Source: Cellulophaga sp. RHA19 (GTDB lineage: Bacteria > Bacteroidota > Bacteroidia > Flavobacteriales > Flavobacteriaceae). Taken from it: a stretch of DNA of 64,000 nucleotides. The notes beneath the pieces are model-generated. The model was given only the letters and a program-made list of their open reading frames with translations, did not search any database and was not told the DNA's origin. Numbering within the stretch: position 1 is the first letter of the stretch; each line of letters starts with the position of its first letter. Location: assembly GCF_002813425.1 (NCBI RefSeq), contig NZ_PHUL01000001.1, positions 2,983,001 through 3,047,000 on the forward strand, written 5' to 3'. Position numbers and translations under genes: made by a program. Of this stretch, positions 36,943-43,594 are shown one piece after another.

Positions 36943-36985
36943 TACGTTTACAGCCGTTAACATTAATGAACATAAATTATTATAT

Positions 36986-38086
36986 ATGAAATTGAATTGG
37001 AAGATTTTTTCACTTTTTTGCCTAACACTTTTATTTATTTCTTGCGGTAATGCAGACGATGATGTAAAGTTTGACTTTAACGATAAAGGTGAATTAGGAA
37101 AAGGAACAACCGTAGATGATTGCCTTGGTTTTGGCGAGAATGATCTAATATTATCTATACAAGAACAATACACAGCTAAACCCTCTAAAGTATCAGTGTT
37201 TTTTAAAGTATCTGACGCAGACGGTAACCCTGTTGTTGGCCTAGTAGAAGATGACTTTACAATATATGAACAAGGTAGAAATGATGACTGTTTTAATAGA
37301 ATATCTACTACCGAGTCTTCAAAAGATATATCTCCTAACGGACAAATATTTAATAACAGCACATTACTTGTATTAGATTTAAGTAAAAGTGTATTAGATA
37401 GTAGTTTAGATGAATTAAAAGCTGCGTCTATTAGTTTTATAAATAATGTAATGCCAGAAGAAGACAAAAAAAGTGACTCTTTTAAAATGAGTATTCATTG
37501 GTTTGATGGTGAAGATAAATTACATGAATTAAACCCTTTAACTTCTTCTAGAGACGAGTTAATTGCTGCAATAGAAAGTATCACAAGTACTATTAGCTCT
37601 GATGCCTCTACAGATTTATATGGGGCAGCAATAAGATCTACAGATTTAGCTAGTAAATATTTAAAAGATAATACAGCAAAAGATGTTATTGGCGCAGCCT
37701 CTGTAGTTTTATTTACAGATGGTACAGACCAAGCGTCTAGATACACTAAAGCTGCTGCCTTAAAAAAGGTAACAGATGCAGATCCTAACATATCTTTCTT
37801 TTCTATTGGTTTGGGTAGTGAAATTGATACTGAAGTTTTAAAAGAACTTGGTAAAACATTTAGTGTATTTGCCACTAATAAAGAAGAGTTAGAAACTACA
37901 TTTAACGAGATTTCTACTAAAATATCTGAAAGAGCTAATAGTTTTTACTTATTTGAGTACTGTACTCCTAAAAGAGATGGTAGTGGCACAAGTAACCTGG
38001 TAATACAAGTTAAAAAACAAAACAGAGAAGGCGCTGTACAAACCAAATTTAGCGCAGACGGTTTTACTGGTGGTTGCGGTCTATAA
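36986..38086 (+). CDS. von Willebrand factor A domain lipoprotein
   Basis: 366 residues: signal peptide with lipobox FISC (Cys20) followed by GNADDD, an N-terminal Ig-like segment (SVFFKVSDADGNPVVGLVED) and a vWA domain over ~110-310 with MIDAS motif DLSKS and later TDLYGA and FTDGTD. A C-terminal cysteine-containing tail follows (FEYCTPKRDGSG, GGCGL). Probably a metal-dependent protein- or glycan-binding surface lipoprotein. It ends at its own terminator. Confidence 0.85.
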   Translation: MKLNWKIFSLFCLTLLFISCGNADDDVKFDFNDKGELGKGTTVDDCLGFGENDLILSIQEQYTAKPSKVSVFFKVSDADGNPVVGLVEDDFTIYEQGRNDDCFNRISTTESSKDISPNGQIFNNSTLLVLDLSKSVLDSSLDELKAASISFINNVMPEEDKKSDSFKMSIHWFDGEDKLHELNPLTSSRDELIAAIESITSTISSDASTDLYGAAIRSTDLASKYLKDNTAKDVIGAASVVLFTDGTDQASRYTKAAALKKVTDADPNISFFSIGLGSEIDTEVLKELGKTFSVFATNKEELETTFNEISTKISERANSFYLFEYCTPKRDGSGTSNLVIQVKKQNREGAVQTKFSADGFTGGCGL

Positions 38087-39986: not shown

Positions 39987-41321
39987 ATGAAAAATTTAAA
40001 AAGAGTATTACTTGTTTTGTTAGTTGTTGTAATTGTAGCCGTTGTTTACAATTACCCAAAATTAAATATGATTTCTGGTTATGCAGTTAAAAATATGGCA
40101 TCTAATGTTTTTATTGCAGATAGAACAGCTGAGGAAATTAATACCGTAGATAACAATGTACCATTAATAAAATTAGCAGACTCTAAGGTTGATAAAAATA
40201 CCAAAAGTGCTACGTCTTCAGTTTTTGGATTAATGACGCGTAAAGCGGTTTACAGAGATGGTTTAGGAGCTGTTTTAATTAATGATGATTATGACCCAAC
40301 TAAGTTTACGCTACAACCACGTAGAAATTTCACAAAAACTGGCTTGCCTTTTCCTTATGGCGATAAAAAACAAAAAGACACTGTATTTACTACCGTAGAC
40401 TATACTGCATTACAAAAAGCTATAGATATAGGTTTCTCTAACCCAGATATTCAAAAAACAAGAAGTACAATTGTTATTTATAAAGACCAGATTATTGCAG
40501 AAAATTATGCTGGCGGTTTTACGGCTGATACTAAAATTTTAGGTTGGTCTATGACAAAAAGTATTGTATCTACCTTATACGGAATATTGCAGTGTAAAGG
40601 AAAATTAAACGTTAACCAATTAGCTCCTATTCCTGAGTGGCAAAATGACGAAAGAAAAAACATCACTTACAATCATCTACTACGTATGCAAAGTGGTTTA
40701 GAATGGGATGAAAACTACACAGAAATATCTGATGCTACTAAAATGCTTTTTTTAGAGTCTGATATGACTTTGGTTCAACAAAAAAAAGAAGCTATTGCTA
40801 AACCAACAGAAATTTGGAATTATTCTTCAGGTACATCTAACTTATTATCTGGTTTATTAAAAAAGAATTTTAAAACTCATCAAGAATACTTGGATTTTCC
40901 TTATGCTAGTTTAATAGATAAAATAGGAATGCACTCTATGTTAATTGAAGCAGATATGGAAGGTAATTACGTAGGTTCTTCTTATGGCTGGGCAACCACT
41001 AGAGATTGGGCTAAGTTTGGATTACTATACTTACACAAAGGAAATTGGAATGGGAAAAGAATTTTTGATTCTGAGTGGGTAGACTATGTTTCTAAACCTA
41101 CTGCACACTCAGACGGTACTTACGGTGGTCATTTTTGGTTAAATGCAGAAGGCAGGTTCCCTGATGTTCCTAAAGATATGTATTACGCTAGTGGTTACCA
41201 GGGGCAGTATGTTTTTGTAATACCTTCTAAAGATTTAGTTGTTGTAAGAACCGGACTTGCAACATATCCTATTTTTGACTTAAATGGCTTTTTAGGAGCT
41301 GTTGTTAAAGCAGTAAAATAA
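39987..41321 (+). CDS. Class C beta-lactamase-like serine hydrolase
   Basis: 444 residues: an N-terminal membrane helix (LLVLLVVVIVAVVYN) then a serine-hydrolase domain with the SxxK motif in GWSMTKSIVST, a Tyr motif in WNYSSGTSN and YYASGYQGQYVFVIP near the C-terminus. It belongs to the broad penicillin-binding or esterase family; true beta-lactamase activity is not implied. Anchored in the inner membrane with the domain in the periplasm. The downstream gap holds the twin repeats. Confidence 0.88.
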   Translation: MKNLKRVLLVLLVVVIVAVVYNYPKLNMISGYAVKNMASNVFIADRTAEEINTVDNNVPLIKLADSKVDKNTKSATSSVFGLMTRKAVYRDGLGAVLINDDYDPTKFTLQPRRNFTKTGLPFPYGDKKQKDTVFTTVDYTALQKAIDIGFSNPDIQKTRSTIVIYKDQIIAENYAGGFTADTKILGWSMTKSIVSTLYGILQCKGKLNVNQLAPIPEWQNDERKNITYNHLLRMQSGLEWDENYTEISDATKMLFLESDMTLVQQKKEAIAKPTEIWNYSSGTSNLLSGLLKKNFKTHQEYLDFPYASLIDKIGMHSMLIEADMEGNYVGSSYGWATTRDWAKFGLLYLHKGNWNGKRIFDSEWVDYVSKPTAHSDGTYGGHFWLNAEGRFPDVPKDMYYASGYQGQYVFVIPSKDLVVVRTGLATYPIFDLNGFLGAVVKAVK

Positions 41322-41426
41322 TAGAATAAGTTTAAAGTATAGATAAGCCTACAACATACTTATCTACACTAACCACATATTAGAACACGTTGACAACATA
41401 AAGTTTTACAAACCTTAAAATCACTA

Positions 41427-41434
41427 TATATTTG
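41427..41434 (+). promoter_or_regulatory. -7 element (TATATTTG) ahead of repeat copy 1
   Basis: TATATTTG at the position expected for a promoter of a roughly 80-nt transcript ending at the hairpin 41484-41519. No TTG -33 is found at standard spacing. Confidence 0.45.
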
Positions 41435-41439
41435 CTGTA

Positions 41440-41520
41440 TAGTTAGTTAGAATAAAATTTTCATTTTCATATAGTGTTCTCGTAAAAAGAGTCTTGTTTT
41501 TGCCGACAAGACTCTTTTTC
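41440..41520 (+). ncRNA. Candidate small RNA 1
   Basis: Predicted from the -7 box at 41427-41434 to the end of a 13-bp perfect hairpin (41484-41496 with 41507-41519, AAAAAGAGTCTTG / CAAGACTCTTTTT) that would be a rho-independent terminator. The region before the hairpin (TCATATAGTGTTCTCGT) is unstructured and identical in both copies, as a seed would be. Because the hairpin has T-runs on both strands, direction rests on the -7 box alone. Confidence 0.45.
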
Positions 41521-41640
41521 ATTTTAAAAGCTTTTTATATAGCACACTAATTAGCTTCAAGTTATTTTAACTCAAAAAAAGAAACCATTTTTCTGTAGGC
41601 CCAATAATTGCTTTTTAAAACGAAATTAAGAGCACAAAAA

Positions 41641-41825
41641 AGCCCCACAACATAAACTTCTATTTTTACCACATAAAAGAGCTCTTTTACAACATAAAAT
41701 TTTAAAACCTTTAAAGTCTATATATATTAGTAGTGTTATTAAAAAAGAATAAATTTTTCATTTTCATATAGTGTTCTCGTAAAAAGAGTCTTGTTTTTGC
41801 CGACAAGACTCTTTTTCATTTTAAA
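41641..41825 (+). repeat. Direct repeat copy 2
   Basis: Second copy of the element; 41755-41825 is identical to 41458-41528. Its -7 region reads TATATTAG rather than TATATTTG, one base from consensus, so its promoter may be weaker. Confidence 0.85.
41737..41817 (+). ncRNA. Candidate small RNA 2
   Basis: Paralogue of candidate 1, with the identical seed-like tract and hairpin (41781-41793 with 41804-41816). The upstream promoter is imperfect. On the minus strand both copies could instead encode a short peptide starting MKKSLVGKNKTLFTRTLYEN. Confidence 0.4.
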
Positions 41826-41873: not shown

Positions 41874-41910
41874 CAAAAAAAAAGTGCTCAATAATTATTG
41901 AACACTTTTA
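41874..41910 (-). terminator. Terminator of the DEAH helicase gene
   Basis: Inverted repeat AAAAGTGCTCAATAA / TTATTGAACACTTTT (one mismatch) around 41880-41908 with a long T-run on the minus strand. It lies just beyond the stop at 41931. Confidence 0.75.
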
Positions 41911-41930: not shown

Positions 41931-43493
41931 TTAATCTTCTGGTGGATAACCGTGTATTTTTTCAAAATCTCTATCAAAATTCTCTCTTAAATAAGCTGTT
42001 AATCTCTTTTTGTAATCATCTTTTAACCAACTTAAAAAGTTAAATGTACTTCTGCTTATACACTTTGCGTACATTTGTATACGGTGATCTATATCACCAT
42101 CTAATATTTTAGACAAAGCAAGAGCATCATAAACATCTTCACTGTTTTCTATACATATTTTTGCGTGCTGCTCTATAGAACGTTCTAAAACTACTTTAGA
42201 CGATTCACCTCCAGAAACGGCACTTACATATGTTTCTTTTATATCAAAATAAACCTCTTCGGATTTTGCAAATTGCTCACGAATTTCCTCTGGCATCTCG
42301 TGCTTAAAGGTACTTTCTATATCTTCATCGTTCTTTAAACGATCCATATAAAAATTAGGATTGCTAAAGATTGTTTGCCAATCTAAATCTGCTCCCCAAG
42401 GTCCAAACCTATGGTAATTGTTACCTAAATCTATTACCGTAAATTTAGATTTATTATTTAAAATACGAGAACCACGACCAATCATCTGATAATACAATGT
42501 AAGAGATTTGGTTGCTCTGTTTAATATAATAGTGTCTATTGTAGGCTCATCAAAACCAGTAGTTAAAATACTCACAGATGTTAAAATGGCATCTGGAGTT
42601 TCTTTAAACCAGTTTAATATTTGTTTACGCTGTTTTTTTGTGGCCGTATTATCTAAATGCATTACAGGGTAGCCAGCATCTTTAAAAGTATAATATACTT
42701 GTATAGATGTGTTAATACCGTTATTAAAAATAAGTGTTTTTTTATTTTTAGAATGCTCTTTATAAGCCTCCATAAGCTTATCTAACATTGCTGTGCTAGA
42801 GTATAAATCTTCTGAAGATTTTACGGTATAATCACCATTAGAACCAATTTCTAACGATGTTAATCCCATATTATATTGGTGTACTTCTGCACGAGCCAAA
42901 AACTCGTTTTCTATAAGAGAACCAATGCTTTCACCTGTAATTAGCTCATCATAATTATCTTTCATTGGTAAGTTCTTGTTAGAACTTAAAGGTGTTGCTG
43001 TAACTCCTAAAATAAAAGATTTATCAAAAAATTTAAAAAGCTTAGTAAATGAGTTGTAATGTGCCTCATCAATAATTACAAGACCAATGTCAGATATATC
43101 TAACATATCATCATTTAAACGATTGTTAAGGGTTTCTACCATTGCAACAAAACAACTATACCTTTCTTGGTCATCTAAATTTGCTGTACTGTTTACTACC
43201 TTACTAATTACACCAAAACTATCTAACATTTTAGACGTTTGGTTACACAGTTCTACACGGTGCGTCATAATTAACACCTTTTTTTGGTGGTGCTTAAGGT
43301 ACTGTCTTACTATTTCAGAAAATATAACAGTTTTACCACCACCTGTAGGCAATTGGTATAGTAAATGATGGTCATCTGGAGCAGACTCAAAGCGCTCAAA
43401 AATCTCATTTAAAGCTCCTTTTTGGTAGTCATAAAGCTCTTTGTCTGTCTTCTTTTCTTGTAATTCGAAAGCAGTCTTCGTCATAGTATCCAT
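41931..43493 (-). CDS. DEAH-box superfamily 2 helicase (SSL2-like)
   Basis: About 520 residues. Helicase motifs: QLPTGGGKTVIFSEIV (Walker A), MTHRVELCNQT, VIIDEAHYNSF (DEAH), GVTATPL, SILTTGFDEP and QMIGRGSR. The C-terminal ~150 residues are unassigned. This resembles stand-alone SSL2/type-I-R-like helicases of unknown role. The start is set at 43493 or 43484, because the longer frame to 43517 begins inside the -7 box at 43507-43514. No methylase or nuclease gene is adjacent, so a restriction role is not supported. Confidence 0.88.
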   Translation of the reverse strand: MDTMTKTAFELQEKKTDKELYDYQKGALNEIFERFESAPDDHHLLYQLPTGGGKTVIFSEIVRQYLKHHQKKVLIMTHRVELCNQTSKMLDSFGVISKVVNSTANLDDQERYSCFVAMVETLNNRLNDDMLDISDIGLVIIDEAHYNSFTKLFKFFDKSFILGVTATPLSSNKNLPMKDNYDELITGESIGSLIENEFLARAEVHQYNMGLTSLEIGSNGDYTVKSSEDLYSSTAMLDKLMEAYKEHSKNKKTLIFNNGINTSIQVYYTFKDAGYPVMHLDNTATKKQRKQILNWFKETPDAILTSVSILTTGFDEPTIDTIILNRATKSLTLYYQMIGRGSRILNNKSKFTVIDLGNNYHRFGPWGADLDWQTIFSNPNFYMDRLKNDEDIESTFKHEMPEEIREQFAKSEEVYFDIKETYVSAVSGGESSKVVLERSIEQHAKICIENSEDVYDALALSKILDGDIDHRIQMYAKCISRSTFNFLSWLKDDYKKRLTAYLRENFDRDFEKIHGYPPED

Positions 43494-43506
43494 TTCTATT
43501 GGGCTG

Positions 43507-43514
43507 CAAAAATA
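43507..43514 (-). promoter_or_regulatory. -7 element (TATTTTTG) for DEAH helicase
   Basis: Minus-strand TATTTTTG, 13 nt before the ATG at 43493. It overlaps the first codons of the longer reading frame, which decides the start. Confidence 0.65.
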
Positions 43515-43594
43515 CATTCTTTAGCGCGCTTTTAACGAATAATTAGCGAAAAAACTATTCACAAATTTTAAAAAAAATATAGATATAGTAAAAA

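Follow-up and report, generated by a model that had tools for sequence, protein, structure and literature searches.

The repeat examined here lies within a 64,000-nt stretch of the Cellulophaga sp. RHA19 genome (the window). It is flanked by genes for a beta-lactamase-family protein (39987-41321, PF00144) and, in convergent orientation, a helicase (41931-43517, PF04851/PF00271). A sequence-only reading of the window had reported two copies sharing 71 identical nt at an offset of 297, and had taken them for a tandem pair of small RNAs. Sequence comparison within the window reproduced both the coordinates and the identity (41458-41528 versus 41755-41825, 71/71 nt), with the ungapped repeat spanning 89 nt at 97% identity. 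Each copy carries a perfect 14-nt inverted repeat (41484-41497/41506-41519 in copy 1 and 41781-41794/41803-41816 in copy 2) and a T-run; the hairpin and T-run of that reading were thus recovered, while its length of 13 bp was not. When folded as 89-nt RNAs, both copies formed a hairpin with 15 or more pairs (z = -3.5 for copy 1 and -4.4 for copy 2 against dinucleotide shuffles), and none of 200 shuffles folded as well as either copy. The predicted fold consists of this one strong hairpin and a weak 5´ helix. The tract before the hairpin, described earlier as single-strand-like, contains a 23-nt core that was indeed predicted to be mostly unpaired. A simple terminator pattern scan listed the copy 2 hairpin, with the copy 1 hairpin absent from its list, and a search of the window for tRNAs and tmRNA found none. 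We also noted a strong inverted repeat at 41880-41909, in the gap separating copy 2 from the helicase gene; it resembles a minus-strand terminator and is likely that of the helicase gene. The transcribed features predicted for the pair are as follows.

41439..41520, + strand: predicted small RNA copy 1, ~82 nt, ends placed from box and terminator (+/- 2-3 nt)
41458..41480, + strand: invariant 23-nt core, copy 1, identical in 47/47 distinct copies
41484..41519, + strand: terminator hairpin, copy 1, from inverted repeat, fold and covariation
41735..41817, + strand: predicted small RNA copy 2, ~83 nt, ends placed by prediction
41755..41777, + strand: invariant core, copy 2, the same 23-nt core
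41781..41816, + strand: terminator hairpin, copy 2, from inverted repeat, fold and terminator pattern scan

Conservation of promoter, operator, core and terminator

The DNA upstream of the 71-nt block had been regarded as merely a loose match that kept a TATATT-type -7 region in both copies. The -7 boxes are present (TATATTTG and TATATTAG), but the rest of the description did not hold, since a common operator of hexamers spaced 21 bp apart was found in both window copies and across the family. The promoter features of the window copies are:

41351..41398, + strand: operator copy 1, hexamers at 41351-41356, 41372-41377 and 41393-41398, spacing 21 bp, proximal twin repeat 12/12
41427..41434, + strand: -7 box copy 1, TATATTTG, consensus TAnnTTTG, conserved over 158 non-redundant copies
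41647..41694, + strand: operator copy 2, hexamers at 41647-41652, 41668-41673 and 41689-41694, spacing 21 bp
41723..41730, + strand: -7 box copy 2, TATATTAG, from conservation over non-redundant copies

In the window, the hexamers read ACAACA or ACCACA, three per copy and exactly 21 bp apart. Alignment of 158 non-redundant upstream regions on the -7 box revealed TAnnTTTA/G, a TTTC element located 21-24 bp ahead of it and a pair of hexamers with 21-bp spacing. The pattern ACMACA-N15-ACAWCA reached at least 11/12 within 150 nt upstream of 220 of the 222 exact-core copies (157/159 non-redundant), as against 0.6% of shuffled upstream DNA. When the gap between hexamers was scanned, 157/159 non-redundant copies reached 11/12 at a gap of 15, compared with 65 at a gap of 12, 95 at a gap of 18 and at most 26 at any other gap from 3 to 30; the partial scores at 12 and 18 reflect the period of 3 within the hexamer. 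A third hexamer a further 21 bp upstream, present in both window copies, matched at 5 or 6 of 6 positions in 80/219 copies versus 3/219 for random hexamers. We inferred transcription start sites by assigning the box to positions -12 to -5, its reported location in promoters of Flavobacterium psychrophilum, for which the TAnnTTTG consensus is given (PMC9723704). Published descriptions of LytTR sites give two repeats with 11-13 nt between them (PMC4847170), placed directly before the -35 (PMC6193735), and for VirR the motif CCAnTT-N15-CCAGTT (PMC4963840). The operator of the repeat copies, with direct repeats ~21 bp centre to centre directly before the promoter, has the geometry described for LytTR activators.

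Genome-wide, the hexamer pattern with up to one mismatch was no more frequent in the window genome than the reversed control (219/130 vs 266/164), and on this count a regulon extending beyond the small RNAs was rejected as a genome-wide claim. Two or three hexamers spaced 21 bp apart were seen before protein genes at 713.8, 924.5 and 1566.0 kb (exact) and at 884.3 kb (one mismatch) of the window genome, three of the four genes encoding putative secreted or surface proteins. These sites possibly represent a direct regulon of the LytTR regulator and are treated as leads only. Elsewhere in the same genome, a run of CAA trinucleotide repeats extends over ~70 bp (799742-799813), and a fourth 16S rRNA gene (1678809-1680011) was matched in pieces (model positions 9-873, 875-902 and 946-1215), the three others being full.

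Within the predicted transcript, none of the 23 core positions (TTTTCATTTTCATATAGTGTTCT) varied among 47 distinct copies, while the DNA immediately before them was variable; these loci had been collected by similarity, with up to 6 substitutions in 30 tolerated, and indel variants escape the count. The 23-mer was intact in only 3 of 15 weaker copies or matches inspected; several of the others had small indels around TCATATAGTG with TTTTCAT and GTGTTCTC retained, and some of the 15 are probably chance matches. On 91 matches, 96.8% of cells in the terminator stem were paired and 11/13 pairs had changed on both sides, with 122 double-change cells versus 21 +/- 4 in shuffles; structures slid along the alignment dropped to 33-67% pairing. 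The 91-match alignment was fitted to the covariance model, and a plain alignment of 40 copies gave double changes in 10/13 pairs. Hairpins are identical within a site, while loops differ between the three sites of the window genome and stems differ between genomes. This suggests that the long identity in the window reflects, in part, recent duplication or gene conversion. With the core invariant and the stem free in sequence but not in pairing, selection appears to act on these two elements. The earlier proposal of selection on the transcribed part therefore stands for the core and the stem pairing but not for all 71 nt, and the upstream operator and -7 box are conserved too.

A family of copies associated with a LytTR two-component system

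The pair had been presented as a tandem unit with diverged upstream sequence. It stands as a predicted small RNA pair but is in fact part of a genome-wide family: the window genome (one contig, 3.93 Mb) has five strong matches to the block at three sites. Besides the window pair, two copies lie together at 3313.6-3313.9 kb and one stands alone at 2822.8 kb. In a set of 60 relatives, strong matches, with a best E of at most 2e-11, were detected in 17/17 other Cellulophaga genomes and in three further Flavobacteriaceae genera. An exact scan of one genome per species returned at least 120 stretches with the exact 23-mer. Among the matches listed, these came from Flavobacteriaceae, mainly Maribacter, Muricauda/Allomuricauda/Flagellimonas, Arenibacter, Zobellia, Eudoraea, Robiginitalea and Cellulophaga, as well as from a few MAGs labelled Bacteroidia or Bacteroidetes bacterium and the records Cytophaga sp. 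FL35 and Algicola sp. A covariance model run on 80 of these loci matched 80/80, with 91 matches in total. In a sample of the taxonomic family, 106/299 genomes matched the model at E <= 0.01. Clear matches (best E below 2e-8, the next genome being at 8.6e-6) were present in 49/299, with 1-5 matches each at E <= 0.01 (mean 3.3, a single match in 1/49); the other 57 genomes, with weak and mostly single matches, were left out of the count. Seven of 395 genomes from across the phylum matched at E <= 0.001, six of them clear and in the same family and one marginal and outside it. Both the 299- and 395-genome searches used stricter filters, at which weak matches are lost. A covariance-model search of Bacteroidota had been proposed as a check on the small RNA reading, with absence from relatives counting against it, and the block is clearly present in related genomes. 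Single genomes thus carry several paralogous, predicted stand-alone sRNA genes with a common core. Collectively, 222 exact-core copies with a common operator, an invariant core and a terminator that covaries over 91 matches provide comparative evidence for the tandem pair of small RNAs, and it is very likely that each copy is transcribed as an sRNA.

The settings of 225 copies were surveyed using automatic ORF calls. The commonest (35 copies) was a beta-lactamase-family gene followed by an enoyl-CoA-hydratase-family gene (PF00378; menB-like by reading). In 29 copies, a LytTR regulator gene preceded and a TPR histidine kinase gene followed, both on the RNA strand, and in 17 copies the RNA lay between a PEP-carboxylase-like and a glycosylase-like gene (recognised from sequence alone). 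The copies with a downstream ORF bear on whether the repeat might instead be a cis-acting leader or attenuator whose hairpin controls read-through into the next gene. Such an arrangement fits the 74/213 copies with a same-strand downstream ORF, including the regulator-RNA-kinase setting, but 139/213 copies are head-on to that ORF, which makes a leader unlikely. In addition, the flanking genes vary between sites while the core is constant, and in 27/29 regulator-RNA-kinase loci a second, perfect operator lies between the RNA and the kinase gene (the two exceptions being Cellulophaga records), giving the kinase gene its own operator downstream of the RNA. We consider a leader function very improbable.

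The recurrence of these intergenic settings across genera also bears on whether the repeat is simply a recent duplication or mobile element without function. Copies within a site can be nearly identical, as for the four alike in genome G007, and would fit such an origin. This explanation can be given next to no weight, as the core is invariant in otherwise diverged DNA, the stem changes are compensatory and the operator spacing is exact; unless the comparative results are all artefacts, conservation refutes it. The exact core was also not found among IMG/VR viral contigs, which speaks against a mobile repeat, and a phage origin was rejected on this result.

In the window genome, the regulator-kinase pair (3158.6-3161.6 kb, with the regulator gene at 3160904-3161647) consists of a regulator with receiver and LytTR domains and a kinase with HisKA_2 and HATPase_c domains. 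Among eight regulator-kinase loci chosen on purpose, four (G008, G009, G028 and G035) had the core in the gap between the genes, while no core was found in the gap of the other four (the window genome, G000, and G002, G014 and G018). Of these core-less gaps, those of G014 and G018 kept the operator, and those of the window genome and G002 had no exact operator. A close orthologue of the regulator (84-89% identity) was present in 21/60 relatives (G000-G018, G028 and G035), the same genomes that had strong RNA matches. Similarly, the 49/299 RNA-positive genomes of the family are the 49 with the highest-scoring regulator orthologue (78-96% identity), a match obtained with cut-offs set once the data had been seen. 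It also follows a clade, so that the genomes are not independent. The next orthologue was at 76% identity, and 9 more genomes at 58-76% had no clear RNA match. Since there is no wide gap below the regulator cut and the genomes fall in related groups, this co-occurrence is an association and not proof.

Another activator of similar geometry could bind the common operator in place of the LytTR regulator encoded nearby. The genomes hold further LytTR-type regulators, and in G005 and G014 the copies adjoin a different histidine-kinase gene. The RNA and the regulator nevertheless share their 49-genome distribution, and the operator precedes the cognate kinase gene in the 27/29 loci noted above. We therefore judge a different activator to be a rather poor bet, and the conserved operator and gene association make it likely that the copies are under LytTR control. 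We also observed that in loci L051 and L053 (G005 and G014, respectively) RNA copies alternate, ~1.3 kb apart, with small membrane-type histidine kinase genes (HisKA + HATPase_c); these copies are possibly linked to a second kinase.

In seven genomes of the family with a regulator at 68-76% identity, operator-box-terminator units or parts of them were seen by eye after the regulator gene, often several and with other RNA sequences. The RNA-like units (L280-L286, from G327, G117, G295, G070, G136, G262 and G274, respectively) have 21-bp-spaced hexamers, a -7-like box and a terminator, and the RNA sequence differs from that of the window family (for example CCCAAATGTTATTATT in L280, with a similar sequence in L281). 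They may constitute a second sRNA family. Of two genomes with a regulator at 58% identity, one (L288) had 21-bp-spaced hexamers with no evident RNA unit and the other (L287) had neither. The presence of such units with other RNAs in relatives suggests that the regulator-driven RNA arrangement is older than the core.

Candidate targets and partners of the core

The best candidate target in the window is the mRNA of a VWA lipoprotein (gene 36986-38086, VWA domain PF00092):

36968..36993, + strand: predicted core pairing site on the VWA lipoprotein mRNA (gene 36986-38086), covering a 5´ GAACA and the AUG region; candidate target

The predicted duplex, which ranked 1 of 51 window genes, forms in two parts, GAACA with UGUUC and (AU)AUGAAA with UUUCAU(AU). 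For six orthologues from three genera (the window; C. baltica B2M06; Cellulophaga sp. F20128; L056 of Cellulophaga genome G009; a Maribacter MAG; and Eudoraea adriatica), the mean was -15.0 kcal/mol compared with -8.7 +/- 0.9 for 300 shuffled cores, none of which (0/300) was as low. It was the most extreme of 46 gene clusters with at least four members (z = -4.9; cluster mean -1.1, sd 1.3). Five other clusters, two of them likewise lipoprotein- or secreted-type families, also scored lower than every one of the 60 shuffles. The VWA lipoprotein was first noticed by ranking (second in the first ranking, then first) and tested afterwards, with the ranking confined to genes near the loci retrieved. 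The lowest cluster in the first ranking, an RluD-like gene, was rejected, as it reached only z = -1.9 against shuffled cores. We give the VWA lipoprotein an even chance of being a real target.

As a general property, start-codon pairing by the core was weak: in a sample of 300 of 572 genes, start regions had an advantage of 0.45 kcal/mol compared with gene interiors. When 150 genes were used, 0/60 mononucleotide shuffles showed as good a start-codon preference, but 23/60 dinucleotide shuffles did. No site complementary to the 24-nt core within 3 mismatches was found in the window genome besides the RNA copies, while the 20-nt inner core had 9 extra complementary sites versus 4 for the reversed control, 2/9 exactly at a start codon. 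We rejected a single long antisense target given the lack of a genomic complement to the 24-nt core, the 20-nt sites being too few to claim a target. Overall, the balance tips slightly towards pairing at start codons as the main action of the RNA.

Some RNAs with several copies act differently. CsrB and RsmY RNAs are decoys that titrate an RNA-binding protein, and the core could likewise be a site for a sequence-specific single-strand RNA-binding protein that is titrated by the many copies. Multiple copies under two-component control are consistent with this, and 23 consecutive invariant nt is long for a base-pairing seed. However, there is one core per RNA with no repeated motif, the core has a conserved candidate mRNA site, and some diverged copies have small indels in the core yet retain both TTTTCAT and GTGTTCTC on either side, a pattern that fits two-part pairing better than a decoy. 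No RRM or Hfq match was found in the window genome, which also counts against a decoy, and we regard this alternative as unlikely, though less so than the others considered. The protein searches covered Hfq (PF17209), with 0/60 genomes positive including the window genome and 5/14 control genomes positive, and RRM (PF00076), with 0/23 genomes of the same family positive including the window genome and 3/37 overall. If the RNA pairs, it would do so without Hfq or an RRM protein, or with some other helper.

A proposed mechanism and its relation to known systems

The reading we favour, and consider probable from the comparative evidence, is a trans-acting sRNA, present in several copies and driven by a two-component system, that pairs through its core with start-codon regions. 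Each copy would be a stand-alone gene for a non-coding RNA of ~80 nt. The phosphorylated LytTR response regulator, from a menA-like - regulator - (RNA) - TPR histidine kinase cluster, would bind the 21-bp-spaced hexamers just upstream of the promoter and turn on all copies together, along with its own kinase gene in most relatives examined. Transcription would stop at the intrinsic terminator, so that most of the core UUUUCAUUUUCAUAUAGUGUUCU stays single-stranded. This core would then pair with mRNA around the start codon, UUUUCAU being antisense to AUGAAAA, with a second contact between UGUUC and GAACA in the 5´ UTR, and this pairing would block translation, probably of secreted proteins and lipoproteins. 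Extra copies would provide a higher dose and more speed.

The RNA had been put forward as one with no known description, and this agrees with what we found. There were 0 Rfam matches in the window at the gathering threshold; 11 matches obtained at E up to 10 were dismissed, as all scored well short of that threshold (the best, to a snoRNA family, had E 0.014) and 8/11 were on the minus strand. Searches of papers available in PMC on flavobacterial sRNAs and LytTR systems showed no description of the RNA among the papers listed, and the core sequence occurred in none of the papers available there. The one Flavobacteriaceae sRNA catalogue found in these searches is for F. psychrophilum (PMC9723704). 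Rfp18 of that species, like the RNA described here, is an sRNA conserved within flavobacteria (in its case within the genus), and it is needed for the normal mRNA level of two secreted-type metalloproteases. It is set apart by its described structure, since pairing is predicted via a third stem-loop, and the fold here has one strong hairpin and not the three or more stem-loops of Rfp18 (PMC9723704).

Several characterized systems share elements of the proposed arrangement. LhrC1-5 of Listeria are five copies, all dependent on the two-component system LisRK, that pair near the Shine-Dalgarno sequence and start codon. The likeness lies in five copies under, as proposed here, one two-component system, while the sequence is unrelated, with UCCC motifs and three sites per RNA; that account gives no LisR consensus as known at the time (PMC4132741). 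The streptococcal csRNAs under CiaRH are several similar sRNAs complementary to the RBS and AUG, and also have a direct-repeat operator (TTTAAG-N5-TTTAAG), but the repeat spacing is 11 vs 21 bp and both operator and RNA sequence differ (PMC8186281). A two-component regulator with a direct-repeat operator also drives a regulatory RNA in the case of RNAIII under AgrA and VR-RNA under VirR (PMC4227749, PMC4963840). The VirR motif of VR-RNA has the same 21-bp spacing as the operator here (PMC4963840), whereas both systems are from Firmicutes, differ in operator and RNA sequences and, in the accounts cited, are not described as multi-copy (PMC4227749, PMC4963840).

Within the same phylum, the FopS sRNAs of Bacteroides thetaiotaomicron comprise 14 paralogues of ~65-70 nt bound by the RRM protein RbpB, and a conserved seed pairs near the start codons of outer-membrane transporter mRNAs (PMC11697453). 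FopS resemble the RNA in being multi-copy and in that the printed seed consensus contains TTTTCATA, as does the core. In contrast to the RNA, for which no RRM match was found, they are RbpB-bound, and their promoters are of the canonical sigma type, with a possible further regulator mentioned (PMC11697453). The FopS/GibS R1' seed as printed was not found in the core, TTTTCATA being all they have in common (P 0.23). Homology to FopS was accordingly rejected, as the shared 8-mer is not significant, and a P of 0.006 belongs to one diverged variant picked afterwards. By analogy, the RNA may work like LhrC, the csRNAs and FopS, with several copies, pairing at starts and, as for the first two, a common controller. 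Membership in any of these families is not established, the sequence comparison with LhrC and the csRNAs being through Rfam only.

The carriers of the RNA are marine Flavobacteriaceae, among them Maribacter, Muricauda/Flagellimonas, Zobellia, Cellulophaga and Arenibacter, which are known to break down algal polymers. The proposed system has a single regulator and operator, at most five copies, a core that does not vary and one candidate target, and is readily testable. As a tentative proposal, to which we assign somewhat less than an even chance, the LytTR system of Flavobacteriaceae may act mainly via RNA. The operators and the order of regulator, small RNA unit(s) and kinase would be kept while the RNA itself is replaced, from the 23-nt core of the Maribacter/Cellulophaga clade to RNAs of sister lineages that are unrelated to it but keep the layout of operator, box and terminator, and the RNAs would act at start codons without Hfq or an RRM protein. 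If true, these findings would represent a two-component-driven, multi-copy sRNA family in Bacteroidota that operates with neither Hfq nor RRM chaperones, together with an example of a regulator and its operators persisting while the RNA sequence turns over.
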